From an uncultured Opitutaceae bacterium (GTDB lineage: Bacteria; Verrucomicrobiota; Verrucomicrobiia; Opitutales; Opitutaceae), in the NCBI GenBank assembly GCA_903891325.1, contig CAITEC010000084.1, positions 1 through 42,482 on the forward strand: a DNA stretch of 42,482 bases, given 5' to 3'. The notes under the pieces are model-generated. The model was given only the letters and a program-made list of their open reading frames with translations, was not told the origin of the DNA and searched no databases. Both the position numbers and the translations under genes were made by a program. This document shows positions 29,024-35,513 of this stretch, piece by piece (within the stretch, counting starts at the first letter, position 1; the number at the start of each line of letters is the position of its first letter).

Positions 29024-30502
29024 CTAAAGGGCGACCGGCGGCCATGGGGTATTACCCGCGGCGGCGGCGGGGGCATGCAGGATCATTTTCGCCTCGAAGC
29101 CGCGGGGCTCGAGGTTCCGGAAGGCGACCGTCCCGCCGCAGGACTCGGTGCAGCTCCGCACGATTGCCAGCCCCAGCCCTGTGCCGCCGGTCTCGCGCGT
29201 TCGCGCCGACTCCGGGCGGAAGAAGGGCTCGCCGAGGCGCGCGAGCGCTTCCGGGGGCACCCCCGGACCCGCGTCCCTTACGGCAATCTCCACACCGGCT
29301 CCAGTCCGGGCGGCCGAGACCATCACGGCCCCGTCTCCGCCGTAGCGAAGCGCATTGCGGACAAGGTTGCCCAGCGCGCGGGAAAGAAGATCCGGCGCCG
29401 CGGCGGCATGCAGTTCCTCATCGAGGCTCAGGGCGGTCCGCATTCCGGCCGACTCCCGGGCGATGACGCGGCGGATGAGCGGGGCGAGCGCGACGTCCTC
29501 GATCGGGGTGGATTTCCCGCGCACCCCCGCCTTCGAGAATTCGAGAAGTTCGTCCACAAGCGCCGCCATCTGCTGGACCTCCTCGCGGAGGTCCGCGACG
29601 ACGGGCGCGAGCGCGGGTTCGGCCCGCTCCTCGAGAATGCCCGTTGCCATCTGGAGGCGCCCGAGGGGCGAGCAGAGCTCGTGGGCCGCGTCGCCCAGGA
29701 AACGCCGCTGGCCGTTCACGAGGGTGTCGAGGCGGCCGGCCATCCGGTTCACGGATCCGCCGAGCCGGCCGAGCTCGTCGCGGCGCTCAAGCTGGACGCG
29801 GGTCTTGAAGTCCCCCTCGGCGATCCGCTCGGTCGCCTTCGCAAGCTTTCTCACGGCCGCCGTGAGGCTGCCGACGAAGGGCAGCCAGAAGAGGATGGAA
29901 AACACGAGGACGACGGCCGCGGCCGCAATCCAGGGATACCAGTCGAGCAGCTTGGCCACCCCGAGCAGCGAATGGGTGCGCGCGACGAGGGTCGCCGCCC
30001 GGCGCTCGCCCGTGTCGGGGTCCTCGTAGGGCACCCGTATCCCCAGCCACAGGTGCGCGGGCCAGCCGGTCGCAAGAAGGAAGCGTCCGCGGGGCAGGCC
30101 CTCGGGTCGATCCCCGGGCGGCGGCCGGCCGGGTTCGCCCCCGTCGGTCTCGGGCGGCGGCGGGCGGCGCTCGGCCAGCCTTCGGGAGACTTCAGCGGGA
30201 AGCGTGACGGGATCGCCGGCGATTTCCCCACCGCGGTTGCTGAAAAGGTAAAAATCGGCGCCGTAGGCCGCGCTGAACCGGCGGAGCACCGCCCCGCGCT
30301 CGCCGCCGGGGGCGTCGGAAGTGTCGGAAGCAATCAGGCCTCCGAGGGCCTGGAGGCGCTCCCCTGCCCTTCCGGTGACCAGCGAGTCCCACCTCGCCGG
30401 TCCCCGCGAGACGGAGTAAACGAGCGCGCCGGCCGCGAGCAGCAGCAGGTTGAGGAGCAGCCAGAGCGACACCTTGAGGGAAAGCGGGACGAGAAGTTTC
30501 AT
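29024..30502 (-). CDS. CpxA-like sensor histidine kinase
   Basis: Membrane-bound two-component sensor, 492 residues. TM1 spans about residues 9-30, a periplasmic sensor of ~150 residues includes a proline-rich stretch (112-136), TM2 is about 188-208, and HAMP about 209-262. The phospho-acceptor His274 lies in FLGDAAHELCSPLGRLQMA. The ATPase domain has the N box (LGNLVRNALRYG, 378-388), G1 (DAGPGVP, 410-416) and G2 (GGTGLGLAIVRS). The H-box and arrangement most resemble CpxA. The gene heads the second RND operon (69 bases to the adaptor) and is separated from its probable regulator partner by the YHYH gene on the other strand. The signal sensed is unknown. Confidence 0.92.
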   Translation of the reverse strand: MKLLVPLSLKVSLWLLLNLLLLAAGALVYSVSRGPARWDSLVTGRAGERLQALGGLIASDTSDAPGGERGAVLRRFSAAYGADFYLFSNRGGEIAGDPVTLPAEVSRRLAERRPPPPETDGGEPGRPPPGDRPEGLPRGRFLLATGWPAHLWLGIRVPYEDPDTGERRAATLVARTHSLLGVAKLLDWYPWIAAAAVVLVFSILFWLPFVGSLTAAVRKLAKATERIAEGDFKTRVQLERRDELGRLGGSVNRMAGRLDTLVNGQRRFLGDAAHELCSPLGRLQMATGILEERAEPALAPVVADLREEVQQMAALVDELLEFSKAGVRGKSTPIEDVALAPLIRRVIARESAGMRTALSLDEELHAAAAPDLLSRALGNLVRNALRYGGDGAVMVSAARTGAGVEIAVRDAGPGVPPEALARLGEPFFRPESARTRETGGTGLGLAIVRSCTESCGGTVAFRNLEPRGFEAKMILHAPAAAAGNTPWPPVAL

Positions 30503-30646: not shown

Positions 30647-32989
30647 ATGAAGACATCCTTAAAAATCATCCACGCCGCCCGCGCCGGCCTCGCCCTCGGC
30701 TGCCTCGCCCTCCTTGCACCGGGGGCATTCGCCGAGCCGATCCTCAGTTCCTGGCAGGTGGCCGATTCCCGCCACTACGCGCGGGTCTACGAGACGGCGG
30801 CCGAGCAGACGGCCGGAACACCCGTTACGATCTGGCCGAATGCGGGCTTAAGCAACGACGGCGGCGGGCAGTCCTCGGTCGCCTACTCGGACGTCCAGCG
30901 CGTGAGCTACTCGGGCAGCTACGTCTACGTCTATTCGACCGGCGTCGCCAGCTACACGATGGGCCCGTGGTTCCTGGACGCCGCCAAGACCGTTCTTTTC
31001 CCCAACTGGCCCTCGGCCTCGGGGGACCTGATGCGCTTTCCCCGCTCGCCGTCGGTGGCCGCGACCAAGACGACGACCGGGCTGGGTCCGATCGGCCTGG
31101 GGGTCAACGGCGTTGCCATCTACAATGGCAGTGACGCCAATTCGTACGCGAGCGGCTCGGGCCAGGACTCGCCGATGGGCAGCGGCATCTGGAACCGCGA
31201 CGCCCTCCTGAACGAGGGCGCAACCTTTGACCCGGCGAACGCCCACCAGCCGCCCACCGGCCAGTACCATTACCACGTGAACCCGATCGCGCTCCGGTAC
31301 CAGCTCGGCGACCACGTGACCTACACGGCGTCGGGCAACACCTACGCGGAGGCGACCTCCTCGCCGGCGCACTCCCCGATCCTCGGCTGGGCATTCGACG
31401 GCTACCCGATCTATGGACCCTACGGATACTCAAATCCCCTTTCGGCGGCCGGCGGGGTCCGGCTGATGACCAGCGGCTTCGCCAAGCGAAATGGGAGCAA
31501 CGGGACCGACAACCTCGCAACAACGGGCCGCGTCTCGCTGCCCCAGTGGGCGGCGACCGCCCAGGGCCGCTCGACGTCGCTTTCCTCGGGCCAGCAGGGC
31601 CCCGGGGTCAGCACGTCCCGCCCGATCGGCTACTATATGGAGGATAACGCCTATCTCGGGGACCTCGGCAAGGTCCAGGGGGTGGACTTCGACCTGAACC
31701 AGTACAACGCACGGTATTGCGTGACCCCGGATTACCCCAATGGAACCTACGCTTATTTCGTGACGCTTAACAGTTCCGCGACCCCGGTATTTCCCTATCT
31801 TGTCGGCCCCCAGTACCTGGGTAACGTGAGCGGTGGGTCGGTCTCTTCGGTTACGGAGAGCGTGACCGATTACGTGCGCGGCGGCCAGGCATCGCCCTTG
31901 TCGGTGACCGCTTACAACTTGGGAAGCAGTGCCGCGCTCACCTGGACGTCGGTCGAGGGGGCGACCTACCGGATCGACACCTCCGCCGACGGCTCCGCGT
32001 GGATGGTTCTCGCTTCCGCGGTCACCAGCGCCGGAGGCGCGACAACGGGCTATTCAACGACCACGATTGCCGCCTATTACCGGGTGACGCTCACCGCCCT
32101 GGCCACCTATTCCACCGAGGGTACCGGCGGGATCTCCGGGATCGGAAACGCGGCGAACGCCCCGGCGGCGGTCGGGTCGAGCGGCACGGCCGCCCTGGTC
32201 AACATATCCGCGCGGGTGTCCTGCGGCGGGACCGCAGGCACGCCGATTCCCGGATTTGCCCTGAGCGGCAGCGGGACTACGCCGATGCTTGTCCGTGGCG
32301 TGGGCCCGACCCTGGGCACGCTCTTCGGAATTGCGAACCCGTTACCGGACCCGAGCGTCAACCTCATCAGCAACAACGCGGTTCTCGCCTCCAACAACGC
32401 GTGGCTCTCCGCCGATGCGGCCACGATGGCCGCCGTCGGTGCCTTTGCCCTCAATAGCGCAAGCAACGACGCGGCGATCCTGGTTTCGCTGCCCGCCGGA
32501 TCCTACACCGCCCCTGTGACATCCACGGGCGGAAACAGCGGGGTCGTCCTGGTCGAGGCCTATGACGCCGCGCTCGGGGCCGCCGGCCCCGCGCTGGTGA
32601 ACGCGTCCGCCCGGGGATTTGTCGGCACGGGCGATGGCGTCATGATCGCCGGATTTGTCATCAGCGGGTCGGGAAACCAGCAGCTCCTGATCCGCGGGGT
32701 CGGCCCGACGCTCTCCACGCTCGGGCTGACCACGGGCCTCCTCGCCCAGCCCACCCTGTCCATCTACCAGGGAGGAACCCTCCTGGCCACCAGCGCCAAT
32801 TGGGGCGGTGCCTCGAACGCCGCGCAGGTCGCCGCCGCCGCGGTGCGCGTCGGCGCCTTTGCGCTGCCCTCCGGGAGCACCGAAGGGGCGCTCCTGGTCA
32901 CCCTTCCCGCCGGGATCTACTCCGCCGAGGTCTCCGGGGTTGGCAACACCACCGGCACCGCGCTGGTCGAACTCTATGCAATCCAGTAG
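30647..32989 (+). CDS. Secreted YHYH-domain protein with two C-terminal verrucomicrobial-type repeats
   Basis: A 780-residue exported protein. The start is MKTSLKIIHAARAG, giving a signal peptide cleaved near AFA-EP (residue 29); the open frame extends far upstream but runs antisense to the kinase gene. The N-terminal half is a YHYH domain: its namesake motif is at residues 207-210 (TGQYHYHVNP), with the companion GWAFDGYPIYGPYG at 247-260. A linker follows, then two tandem ~125-residue units (about 516-639 and 649-779), each running from LVN-SAR through LIRGVGPTL to LVE-Y, a repeat I associate with Opitutaceae and relatives. The function of the YHYH domain is not firmly known; its clustered His and Tyr could bind metal. 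The gene lies opposite to, and between, the kinase and regulator genes. Confidence 0.85.
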   Translation: MKTSLKIIHAARAGLALGCLALLAPGAFAEPILSSWQVADSRHYARVYETAAEQTAGTPVTIWPNAGLSNDGGGQSSVAYSDVQRVSYSGSYVYVYSTGVASYTMGPWFLDAAKTVLFPNWPSASGDLMRFPRSPSVAATKTTTGLGPIGLGVNGVAIYNGSDANSYASGSGQDSPMGSGIWNRDALLNEGATFDPANAHQPPTGQYHYHVNPIALRYQLGDHVTYTASGNTYAEATSSPAHSPILGWAFDGYPIYGPYGYSNPLSAAGGVRLMTSGFAKRNGSNGTDNLATTGRVSLPQWAATAQGRSTSLSSGQQGPGVSTSRPIGYYMEDNAYLGDLGKVQGVDFDLNQYNARYCVTPDYPNGTYAYFVTLNSSATPVFPYLVGPQYLGNVSGGSVSSVTESVTDYVRGGQASPLSVTAYNLGSSAALTWTSVEGATYRIDTSADGSAWMVLASAVTSAGGATTGYSTTTIAAYYRVTLTALATYSTEGTGGISGIGNAANAPAAVGSSGTAALVNISARVSCGGTAGTPIPGFALSGSGTTPMLVRGVGPTLGTLFGIANPLPDPSVNLISNNAVLASNNAWLSADAATMAAVGAFALNSASNDAAILVSLPAGSYTAPVTSTGGNSGVVLVEAYDAALGAAGPALVNASARGFVGTGDGVMIAGFVISGSGNQQLLIRGVGPTLSTLGLTTGLLAQPTLSIYQGGTLLATSANWGGASNAAQVAAAAVRVGAFALPSGSTEGALLVTLPAGIYSAEVSGVGNTTGTALVELYAIQ

Positions 32990-32993
32990 GGAA

Positions 32994-33737
32994 TCACTCC
33001 GCCCCGGCGTCGACGGCGAGCATGTAGCCGGCCGAGCGAAGCGTGCGAATGTATCTGGGATTCTTGACGTCGTCCCGGAGCTTCTTGCGCAGGGAGGAAA
33101 TGTGCACGTCGATCGAGCGGTCAAACACGTCGTAGTTCCGGTCCCGGATCTCGTCGAGCAGCGCCTCGCGGCTCTTAACCCGGCCCCGGGCCCGGGCCAG
33201 GCATGCGAGCAGGTCGAATTCCACGGGCGTGAGACCGAGCACCTCGTCGCCGAGGACCGCGGAGCGCGCTCCCGGGTTCACGCGAAGTTCCCCCACGACG
33301 ATTTCGTCCGCCGGGGCGCCGGGGACGGCCGCGGTCCCGGGCGTGCTGCGGCGCAGGACCGCGCGAAGCCGCGCGAGCAATTCGCGCGTCGAGAAGGTCT
33401 TGGGGAGATAGTCGTCCGCACCGACCTCCAGCCCGACGATCCGGTCGGTCTCGTCGCCCCGGGCGGTCAGCATGAGCACGGGCACGGTGGATTTTGCGCG
33501 GATCCGGCGCAGCACCTCGAAGCCGTCCATTCCGGGAAGCATGAGGTCGAGGATGACGGCGTGCGGGGACTCGTCGCCCTGCTGCGTCGCCTTTTCGAGT
33601 CCGTCGGGTCCCGTGTGCGCCGCGGTCACCCGATAGCCGAGCGGGCCGAGGTAGTCCGCGACAAGCCGGCACAGCTTCCTGTCGTCGTCGATCATCAGCA
33701 GGCGGGTTCCGCCGAGGTCTTGGGCCGGGGAGCTCAT
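32994..33737 (-). CDS. OmpR-family response regulator (CpxR-like)
   Basis: DNA-binding regulator of 247 residues. The receiver domain has the acidic pocket (DDD, 17-19), phospho-acceptor Asp64 in VILDLMLPGMDG, switch Thr near 91 and Lys113. The Pro that normally follows the Lys in 'K-P-F' is Thr here (YLPKTFSTREL). The C-terminal winged-helix domain spans about 148-240 (LTPVEFDLLACLARARGRV, SIDVHISSLRKKLRDD). The frame is open far upstream, but the ATG of MSSPAQDLGG gives the family-typical length. Likely partner of the CpxA-like kinase at 29024-30502, from which it is now separated by the opposite-strand YHYH gene ending 4 bases away. Divergent from the MbnP-MbnH fusion gene. Confidence 0.92.
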   Translation of the reverse strand: MSSPAQDLGGTRLLMIDDDRKLCRLVADYLGPLGYRVTAAHTGPDGLEKATQQGDESPHAVILDLMLPGMDGFEVLRRIRAKSTVPVLMLTARGDETDRIVGLEVGADDYLPKTFSTRELLARLRAVLRRSTPGTAAVPGAPADEIVVGELRVNPGARSAVLGDEVLGLTPVEFDLLACLARARGRVKSREALLDEIRDRNYDVFDRSIDVHISSLRKKLRDDVKNPRYIRTLRSAGYMLAVDAGAE

Positions 33738-35513
33738 CAATCGGCGAAGCCTAGATGGTCGCGACTGCCGTGGGCAATCCCCGTCGCAGCCTGCCTGTCG
33801 ATGATCGTCCCCCCGGTGTCCGCAGCGGACATCTCGCTGTTTTTCACGCCTCGCTGGCATGGGCAGCCGATCGCTATCCCCTCGCCCGCAGTGATGAACG
33901 ACCATGGCCAGGCAATCCGCTTTACCCGGCTCGCCGCCCTCCTTTCCGGTTTCGTCCTTCAGCGCGCGGACGGGGCGACCGTACGGCTGGACGGGCAGTA
34001 CGGGCTGATCGACCTGTCGGCGGGCCGGGCGGGCTTTGTCCTTGGGGGAGTGCCGCCCGGCGACTACACCGGCCTGTCGTATTCGATCGGGCTTCCCCCC
34101 GCGGTCAACCACTCCGACCCGGGGATGTGGCCGGCGGGGCATCCGTTGAATCCGATCGTCGATCACCTGCGCTGGGACTGGCAGGGGGGCTACGTCTTCC
34201 TCGCGCTTGAGGGACGGTGGCGGGAATCGGCCGGCGAACCCGGCGACGAGCAGGGCTTCTCCTATCACCTTGCCACGGATGCCCGCGTCATGCCGCTGCG
34301 GTTCATCTCCTTTTTCACGGTTGCAGGGCCGATGAAGGTCTCATTTGCGGTCGACCTGGACCGGATTGTTGCCGCGCAGCGACTGTCGGTGGACGACGGG
34401 AGCGAGAGCACGCACTCGGGCGACGGCGACAAGCTGGCCCCGCGGCTTGGCGCCGCGGTGGGTCGCGCGGTTTTCTGGCTCCAGGCGGAGTCCACGGCGG
34501 TGGAGACCGGCGAGCCCGGAGCTGCGGGTCCGGCCCTGCCCCGTGCGGGGACTGCATTGGCCTTCCGGGTACCACCGGGATTTCCGCAACCGGCGCTCCC
34601 CTCGGACAATCCCCTGACCGTTGAAGGCGTTGCCCTCGGCCGGCGGCTCTTCACCGACCGCCGGCTTTCAACCGGGGGCGGCCAGTCCTGCGCCTCCTGC
34701 CACGCGCCCGATCACGCCTTCAGCGACTCCGTCGCCCTCAGCCTGGGTGTTGCGGGGAAGCCGGGAAAGCGCAACGGGATGCCGCTTTTCAACCTGGCGT
34801 GGAGCCCCGCCTATACCTGGGACGGGGGCAAGCCCCGCGTCCGGGACCAGGCGCTCTCTGCGATGACCGGTCCCCTGGAGATGAACGCCAACCTGCCCAC
34901 CGTTGTCGCCGCCCTGTCTCGGGATCCGGATGTCCGGACCCGGTTCGAGGCCGCCTTTGGAACCGACGAGGTGACCGCGGTTCGCATCGGGCTCGCGCTT
35001 GAACAATACCTCCTGACGATCGTCTCCGCGGACTCCCGGTTCGACAGGGCCGCCCGCGGGCAGGCCGTTCTCACCCCGGAGGAGCGGCGCGGGTTCAGGC
35101 TCTTCGTGACCGAATACGATCCAGCCCGGGGCCGGCGGGGCGCCGACTGCTTCCACTGCCACGGCGGCGCGCTCTTCAGCGACTACGAATACCGAAGCAA
35201 CGGTCTCGAAATGCGGTCCGCAGACCCTGGACGAGGCGGGGTGACGGGCCAGTCCTACGATGCGGGCCGGTTCAAGACCCCCTCTCTTCGCAACGTGGCG
35301 CTGACCGCTCCCTACATGCACGACGGCCGTTTCGCGACGCTCGACGACGTTGTCGCCCACTACGACCACGGCGTCCGCCGCGGCCCGAACCTGGACCCCA
35401 ACCTCGCCAAGCACCCCGCTGAAGGGATGCACCTTGGCGCCACCGACCAGAAGGCGCTCGTCGCCTTCCTGCGCACGCTCACCGACGAGTCGCTCGCGGA
35501 GAGATTTCGGTAA
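33720..35513 (+). CDS. MbnP-like copper-protein domain fused to MbnH/MauG-like diheme peroxidase
   Basis: Periplasmic two-domain protein, 597 residues from a TTG start. Residues ~15-36 form a signal peptide (h-region LPWAIPVAACLSMIVPP, cleavage near SAA-DI). Residues ~37-200 match MbnP: ISLFF strand, GVPPGDYTGLSYSIGLP, VNHSDPGMWPAGHPLNP, RWDWQGGYVFLALEG, then SYHLATDA. Residues ~285-590 are a diheme cytochrome c peroxidase/MauG domain with heme motifs CASCH (324-328) and CFHCH (477-481), TGPLEMNANLP, and PSLRNVALTAPYMHDGRF. In known systems MbnH is a separate enzyme that oxidises a Trp of MbnP to kynurenine, creating a copper site; here both sit in one chain. The start is uncertain: ATG 33801 would cut the signal peptide, and TTG 33720 overlaps the divergent regulator gene by 18 bases. 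No methanobactin genes are nearby. Confidence 0.8.
   Translation: MGRGAHQSAKPRWSRLPWAIPVAACLSMIVPPVSAADISLFFTPRWHGQPIAIPSPAVMNDHGQAIRFTRLAALLSGFVLQRADGATVRLDGQYGLIDLSAGRAGFVLGGVPPGDYTGLSYSIGLPPAVNHSDPGMWPAGHPLNPIVDHLRWDWQGGYVFLALEGRWRESAGEPGDEQGFSYHLATDARVMPLRFISFFTVAGPMKVSFAVDLDRIVAAQRLSVDDGSESTHSGDGDKLAPRLGAAVGRAVFWLQAESTAVETGEPGAAGPALPRAGTALAFRVPPGFPQPALPSDNPLTVEGVALGRRLFTDRRLSTGGGQSCASCHAPDHAFSDSVALSLGVAGKPGKRNGMPLFNLAWSPAYTWDGGKPRVRDQALSAMTGPLEMNANLPTVVAALSRDPDVRTRFEAAFGTDEVTAVRIGLALEQYLLTIVSADSRFDRAARGQAVLTPEERRGFRLFVTEYDPARGRRGADCFHCHGGALFSDYEYRSNGLEMRSADPGRGGVTGQSYDAGRFKTPSLRNVALTAPYMHDGRFATLDDVVAHYDHGVRRGPNLDPNLAKHPAEGMHLGATDQKALVAFLRTLTDESLAERFR

Follow-up and report, generated by a model that had tools for sequence, protein, structure and literature searches.

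A conserved single-chain fusion of MbnP-like and MbnH-like domains in Verrucomicrobiota, with a candidate self-made kynurenine copper site

Among the described systems closest to the protein reported here is the MbnP/MbnH pair of Methylosinus trichosporium OB3b, which is encoded by two separate adjacent genes and represented by the structures 7L6G (MbnP) and 6E1C (MbnH-like). In a 2021 paper, copper in OB3b MbnP is reportedly bound by a histidine and a methionine, with a kynurenine formed from the first tryptophan of a WxW motif close by. The CorA/CorB and MopE/SACCP systems of methanotrophs are encoded by separate genes; in CorA and MopE Cu(I) is bound by two histidines with a kynurenine (Kyn) near by, a co-transcribed diheme protein has been suggested as its maker, and the residue order is Kyn-x-His (Kyn62, H64), as described in PMC3912023. 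The same source describes MauG as making a quinone cofactor; its substrate is a separate protein, methylamine dehydrogenase. Here we describe a gene in which domains of the same two families as the OB3b pair are joined in one chain. It lies on contig CAITEC010000084.1 of an uncultured Opitutaceae bacterium, of which the whole 42,482-nucleotide stretch (the window) was analysed.

The gene consists of 597 open codons at 33720-35513 on the forward strand and no stop is present between the domains, so that the single-chain fusion described in an earlier note on this DNA is upheld. Its features are listed below; residue numbers follow the earlier note (W152-D-W154).

33720..35513, forward strand: MbnP-MbnH-like single-chain fusion, 597 amino acids; the TTG start is that of the earlier note and is unproven
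33720..33824, forward strand: likely signal peptide, residues 1-35 (hydrophobic stretch in the sequence, with our own threshold test; residues 1-28 have a predicted local distance difference test score, pLDDT, below 50)
33828..34370, forward strand: MbnP domain, residues 37-217 (Pfam match); the modelled domain extends to about residue 258
34140..34142, forward strand: H141, present in 56/58 fusions
34173..34181, forward strand: WxW motif W152-D153-W154; W152 (58/58) is the candidate kynurenine precursor
34266..34268, forward strand: H183 (58/58), a candidate copper ligand; 7L6G has a His at the aligned position
34413..34430, forward strand: H232 and D237 (STHS..GD stretch, 58/58); D237 is characteristic of the fused group
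34584..35495, forward strand: diheme MauG/MbnH-type domain, residues 289-592
34689..34703, forward strand: heme motif 1, CASCH, residues 324-328
34800..34820, forward strand: W361 to W367 stretch; W367 corresponds to the FWDG tryptophan of bacterial peroxidases
35148..35162, forward strand: heme motif 2, CFHCH, residues 477-481
35361..35363, forward strand: Y548; the aligned residue is Tyr in 6E1C and in a MauG, Met in the classical bacterial peroxidase 2c1u

Profile searches placed both halves of the chain in the families that the earlier note had named. The MbnP profile PF20243 matches residues 37-217 at 91.4 bits (cut-off 27, E 8.6e-26), and the CCP_MauG profile PF03150 matches residues 302-448 at 160.3 bits (cut-off 25.6, E 6.5e-47). 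Both profiles are matched at E 1e-5 by all members of our conservation set, which comprises 58 distinct fusions with a highest pair identity of 94.1% (one of them, L077, is shortened by a masked stretch). The top NCBIfam model for the fusion is TIGR04039 (MbnH family di-heme enzyme, E 3.4e-65), and TIGR04052 (MbnP_like_WxW) is matched at E 1e-5 by 52 of the 58.

Comparisons with solved structures agree with these assignments. The closest one to the C-terminal part is 6E1C, an MbnH described as a MauG-like protein linked to copper homeostasis. A single-sequence search with the N-terminal part gave no match to solved structures; a profile built from 42 fused and split N-domains found 7L6G as the sole PDB sequence at E up to 10 (E 7.3e-5), and in this profile match the WxW of the fusions is aligned on the WxW of 7L6G. 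When the N-domain was modelled (pLDDT 96.4, predicted template modelling score, pTM, 0.92), the six chains of 7L6G took ranks 1-6 in Foldseek with E from 2.9e-9 to 1.7e-8, the next match being at E 0.039, and template modelling scores by query of 0.62-0.68 to these chains indicate an MbnP fold. The MbnP profile and fold matches rule out that an unrelated N-terminus simply precedes a standard cytochrome c peroxidase. The model of the full-length chain has a pLDDT of 88.0 and a pTM of 0.85, and the latter value suggests that the two domains are fixed relative to each other.

Several positions are invariant or nearly so among the 58 fusions. W152, H183, H232 and D237 are each present in 58/58, as are both CxxCH motifs (the CASCH and CFHCH positions) and W361, W367, Q377 and E387; Y548 is found in all 57 sequences with letters there, one having a gap, while W154 and H141 each occur in 56/58. 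The earlier note had put forward Trp152 or Trp154 as candidate targets of the diheme domain. The motif is indeed conserved; since W152 is kept in every fusion and W154 is not, W152 is the better target, and W154 is less likely as the main site of oxidation. In a second alignment D237 is Asp in 59/59 fused but only 2/31 split rows, and H232 is His in 59/59 fused versus 18/31 split rows. In the diheme domain the Tyr, Gln, Glu and Trp positions align with those of a Methylobacterium MauG. The Y548 column holds Tyr in 6E1C and in this MauG and Met in 2c1u, the tyrosine of this class being a ligand of the heme iron; the W361 column holds Trp in 6E1C and the Methylobacterium MauG and Tyr in a Paracoccus diheme partner.

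The fusions resemble the OB3b pair in the aligned WxW and in a MauG-type diheme domain closest to 6E1C, and differ from it in being one chain, in scoring below the NCBIfam cut-offs, in their residues around the candidate copper site and, as far as the window genome goes, in lacking MbnB. No methionine column in the fused MbnP domain reaches 40%, so no Met is conserved there, and cysteines are few (none in 38 of the 58 domains, one in 14 and two in 6), which leaves no room for a four-Cys motif, a feature that we took from the depositors' name for 7L6G. Because no Met column is conserved and two histidines are invariant, the candidate copper site of the fusions is probably not a copy of that in OB3b MbnP and, if the ligands reported for the latter are right, would have another ligand set. 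The simplest guess for this set, by analogy with CorA, would be two histidines plus kynurenine; the two invariant histidines would fit a site of the CorA/CorB and MopE/SACCP kind, although the fusion has Trp-x-Trp where CorA has Kyn-x-His. In split pairs the first WxW tryptophan is lost in 18 of the 79 with one diheme gene and kept in 17/17 with two. All 18 Trp-less split MbnP genes still adjoin a MauG-like gene (L087, L089, L093, L096, L112, L118, L119, L121, L129, L132, L137, L214, L215, L217-L219, L223 and L226). WxW is absent from 28 of 96 split pairs, and GGYHYM is found in 23 of those 28, which possibly marks another copper site needing no kynurenine.

The earlier note had further stressed that no methanobactin genes accompany the fusion. 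MbnB, the sole methanobactin gene sought, was not found in the window genome: the top score, for a sequence on another contig, is 39.7 bits where the cut-off is 325. A methanobactin operon elsewhere in the genome was rejected on this absence of MbnB. The setting itself is not unusual, since according to PMC3621798 conservation of the MbnP/MbnH pair extends well outside the methanobactin producers studied there; a location outside a methanobactin cluster is therefore not new in itself. Neither 'fusion' nor 'fused' appears in the text of PMC3621798, and no fused MbnP-MbnH is mentioned in the literature covered by our search, outside which lie most subscription journals, including the one with the OB3b MbnP paper.

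In order to compare fused and split architectures, we examined related genomes and phylum samples. Unbroken full-length fusions are present in 23 of the 189 genomes of relatives, the window genome included (24 proteins, two of them in genome G020), and one further relative, G181, has a broken copy. Among 387 sampled genomes of the phylum, 22 have a PF20243 match (27 rows); 24 of these rows lie in one frame with a diheme domain, two are the copy of G181 (L175), which is spread across several frames, and one belongs to G292, where the gene is in pieces and the MbnP and diheme parts are about 2.6 kb apart (L174:5728-9543). The 24 single-frame rows include some from the single-contig genomes G059, G060 and G085. 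Another single-contig genome, G016, contains a stand-alone 389-amino-acid diheme frame (L026) that scores fairly near the fused C-domain (401 bits), with no MbnP match in the genome; its MbnP domain may have been lost.

A scan of named genomes was evaluated for the best 80 of 588 confirmed loci. Twenty-two of these are from Verrucomicrobiota (one titled only 'bacterium'), with 20 fused and 2 lacking the N-domain near a contig end. The other 58, by title Bacteroidota plus one Phycisphaerales and one Gemmatimonadetes record, include no fusion, and MbnP and diheme frames are apart in 54. No fusion was found in the Bacteroidota sample (247 genomes, 67 of them with 89 rows), where the 33 rows inspected are separate frames and the other 56 lie in open frames of at most 352 amino acids, too short for both domains; nor was one found in the phylum of the Gemmatimonadetes record (64 genomes, 14 of them with 15 rows), where one long frame (527 amino acids) is without a diheme domain and the remaining rows do not exceed 345 amino acids. 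In the sampled Bacteroidota and Gemmatimonadota MbnP and diheme proteins are mostly encoded by neighbouring genes, with the same domains in the same order as in the fusion but as two proteins. Operons in which a single MbnP gene is accompanied by two different diheme genes make up 17 of 98 split pairs, mostly in Bacteroidota (L079, L083, L084, L086, L088, L090-L092, L095, L097 and L101 among them). Pseudomonadota were seen via plasmids only: of 353 plasmid records with a match, none covers 80% of the query in one place, and this search is a weak substitute because distant MbnP domains can escape tblastn. On Paracoccus seriniphilus p599725 separate adjacent MbnP and diheme genes are followed by genes for a copper uptake protein, PCu(A)C and two SCO proteins. 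Six of the 20 listed plasmid rows (H1, H7, H11, H16, H17 and H19) have their diheme match in a gene annotated as 'methanobactin export MATE transporter MbnM', a name that looks wrong because the Paracoccus example aligns as a diheme cytochrome.

The fusion apparently arose once. In a tree of the joined domains (74 thinned rows, 36 fused and 38 split; the second diheme gene was used for split pairs with two), all fusions fall on one side of a branch with a Shimodaira-Hasegawa-like approximate likelihood ratio test (SH-aLRT) support of 99; the same branch has 98 with the diheme part alone and only 42 with the MbnP part alone. FastTree gives one fused/split change for 161 MbnP domains (support 94) and three for 185 diheme domains, the latter because diheme frames that lack an N-domain are in some cases placed within the fused group (including L024 and L073, both on the same contig). 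Locus L076, a repeat of G024, was not used. The rows nearest to the fused clade are five Bacteroidota pairs. Since the diheme frame follows the MbnP stop codon directly and in frame in 25 of 98 split pairs, losing one stop and the second export signal could yield such a fusion. Within the window's genus only 2 of 13 genomes (G000 and G001; the genomes are 64-98% complete) carry the fusion, at 45% identity, which makes losses or transfer likely.

The window genome, which is 94.72% complete, contains one PF20243 match and one PF03150 match, both in the fusion gene. As the genome shows no further CCP/MauG match, no route other than self-modification is visible by which the MbnP domain could be matured. 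Thirteen of the 23 fusion-bearing genomes have no match to the query besides the fusions, in a count that scored at most 7 candidates per genome. Signals for export point the same way. Using a hydrophobic 12-mer threshold of 1.8, which is our own choice, we found such a stretch in 121/125 split diheme partners (a lipobox-like sequence in 87/125) and in 55/61 fused N-termini, but in 0/61 fused linkers, the highest of which lies just under 1.8 while 8 exceed 1.6. The split diheme partners thus carry an export signal of their own, which is missing from the fused linker. Export of the whole chain in one piece is therefore probable, and a single chain would probably be the place where the hemes are attached, export occurs and the MbnP domain is contacted. 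A lipobox-like VAAC inside the likely signal peptide means that the fusion may be a lipoprotein.

We consider it reasonably probable that the diheme domain oxidises the attached W152 to kynurenine, thereby completing a copper site, and that the finished protein holds or hands on copper. In this scheme the fusion gene would yield one exported chain, in which the C-terminal domain acts as a MauG/MbnH-type oxidase and the N-terminal MbnP domain as its substrate. Once charged by peroxide or oxygen, the diheme domain would oxidise W152, a reaction that the fusion protein itself is likely to carry out. The kynurenine would complete a Cu(I) site in which H183 and H232 would serve as ligands and D237 or H141 would lie close by. 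Maturation might take place within one chain or between two copies, and the finished protein would hold or pass on copper outside the cytoplasm. Its partner in a module may be a YHYH protein or, at other loci, a giant protein resembling radical copper oxidases.

These partners emerge from the genomic neighborhood. The neighbours of the fusion in the window, as read from the frames of our simple gene caller (the upstream frame was entered as the YHYH frame), lie in the order kinase, YHYH protein, response regulator, fusion:

29024..30502, reverse strand: sensor histidine kinase
30647..32989, forward strand: YHYH-family protein (PF14240), 780 amino acids, linked to the fusion in relatives
32994..33737, reverse strand: OmpR-type response regulator, divergent from the fusion

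The ATG of the response regulator (33737, reverse strand) overlaps the proposed TTG of the fusion (33720, forward strand) within 33695-33737. This leaves scant room for a promoter between the two genes, and either start may be wrong. The TTG is possible, if unproven; the single in-frame ATG within 40 codons before and 30 after it, at 33801, would cut the signal peptide if used.

By profile search within the stretches examined, a YHYH gene lies upstream on the fusion's strand at 28 of 59 fused loci and a giant protein lies downstream at 12 (one of these, L060, has 361 bases upstream only), and the two never occur together. At the other 19 loci YHYH is downstream (2), upstream on the opposite strand (3) or neither partner is present (14); at one of the 14, L077, a YHYH stretch in the same frame was seen by eye behind the masked stretch. 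Among 107 flanking frames scanned, 21 match YHYH and 12 a glyoxal-oxidase N-terminus. Across the 189 relatives YHYH is matched in 23 of the 24 fusion-bearing genomes (G181 included) versus 25 of the 165 others (Fisher p 3e-15, uncorrected for the relatedness of the genomes); 16 of the 24 carry it on the same contig as the fusion, no more than 5 kb away. YHYH is not among the 25 (of 89) families listed for the 126 frames scanned beside split pairs, which were drawn from the first 149 of 197.

The giants directly downstream of the fusion include L063:7710-13721 and L166:9611-16999, with 10 other loci. Their frames span 2,003-2,746 amino acids in 11 of 12 cases, some reaching the end of the stretch, the L060 copy being cut. 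For the L166 giant, the model of the radical copper oxidase GlxA gives 153.7 bits (cut-off 800; E 5.6e-45). An RNYHS stretch is present in 12/12 giants, and two CxxCH motifs are found in 11/12 (all but the cut L060); in galactose oxidase the YHS stretch holds copper ligands. In the L063 giant, the one scanned nearly in full, Pfam finds CCP_MauG; this protein also has immunoglobulin-like, PKD and PA14 domains.

The linkage of the fusion to a YHYH gene or to a radical-copper-oxidase-like giant is new, and the two linkages suggest a client protein. We put forward only tentatively the wider picture of a Verrucomicrobiota clade with a self-maturing two-His kynurenine copper protein that would supply a YHYH or a radical copper oxidase-diheme partner. 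The same linkages are what an alternative draws on, in which the fusion is a maturase or copper donor whose diheme domain modifies the YHYH protein or the giant, the MbnP domain recognising this partner or handing it copper. The frequency of the two partners, never seen together within the stretches examined, and the co-occurrence and proximity of YHYH are in its favour. A domain that served for recognition alone would have no need of an invariant W152; this and the 14 loci with neither partner (some of them cut by contig ends) argue against it, and we regard it as unlikely.

We think it more doubtful still that the protein is a peroxidase or copper(I) oxidase, in which electrons would pass between the copper domain and the diheme centre so as to detoxify peroxide or copper, with no tryptophan being oxidised. 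The C-domain does belong to the diheme peroxidase superfamily, but it has the MauG-type Y548 where 2c1u has Met, and W152 is invariant in the fusions whereas 18 of 79 single-partner split pairs have lost it. A sequencing or gene-calling artefact, of which the broken copy of G181 and the pieces in G292 might be reminiscent, has a negligible chance of explaining the fusion, because many distinct fusions are known with no pair of the 58 above 94.1% identity, and most MbnP rows of the phylum sample share a frame with the diheme domain, single-contig genomes included.

Several observations count against self-made kynurenine in a copper protein. W154 and H141 are each lost in 2 of the 58 fusions, and MauG-type enzymes catalyse other chemistry too. 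The equivalog cut-offs of both NCBIfam models are missed, with 220.3 against 362.85 bits for TIGR04039 and 38.7 against 140 bits for TIGR04052; the picture is that of a diverged, fused branch of the MbnP and MbnH families. No copper-transport or chaperone family is among the 25 (of 83) families listed for the fusion neighbours, the flanking two-component pair is below every NCBIfam cut-off among the models listed and closest to general OmpR/CpxA-type ones, and a flanking RND (resistance-nodulation-division) pump scores as a multidrug type, not Cus. Copper-specific regulation by this pair or the pump is thus unsupported.

We conclude that this is a real, conserved and apparently single-origin fusion of two known families, and that it makes a good, if still prospective, case for a copper site whose kynurenine is made by the protein itself. 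Since enzyme and substrate are tied together there is no short-lived complex to catch, and one construct could reveal how a diheme domain oxidises a tryptophan and whether it does so in cis. The YHYH and radical-copper-oxidase-like genes provide leads on the role of such a copper protein where the methanobactin explanation fails.

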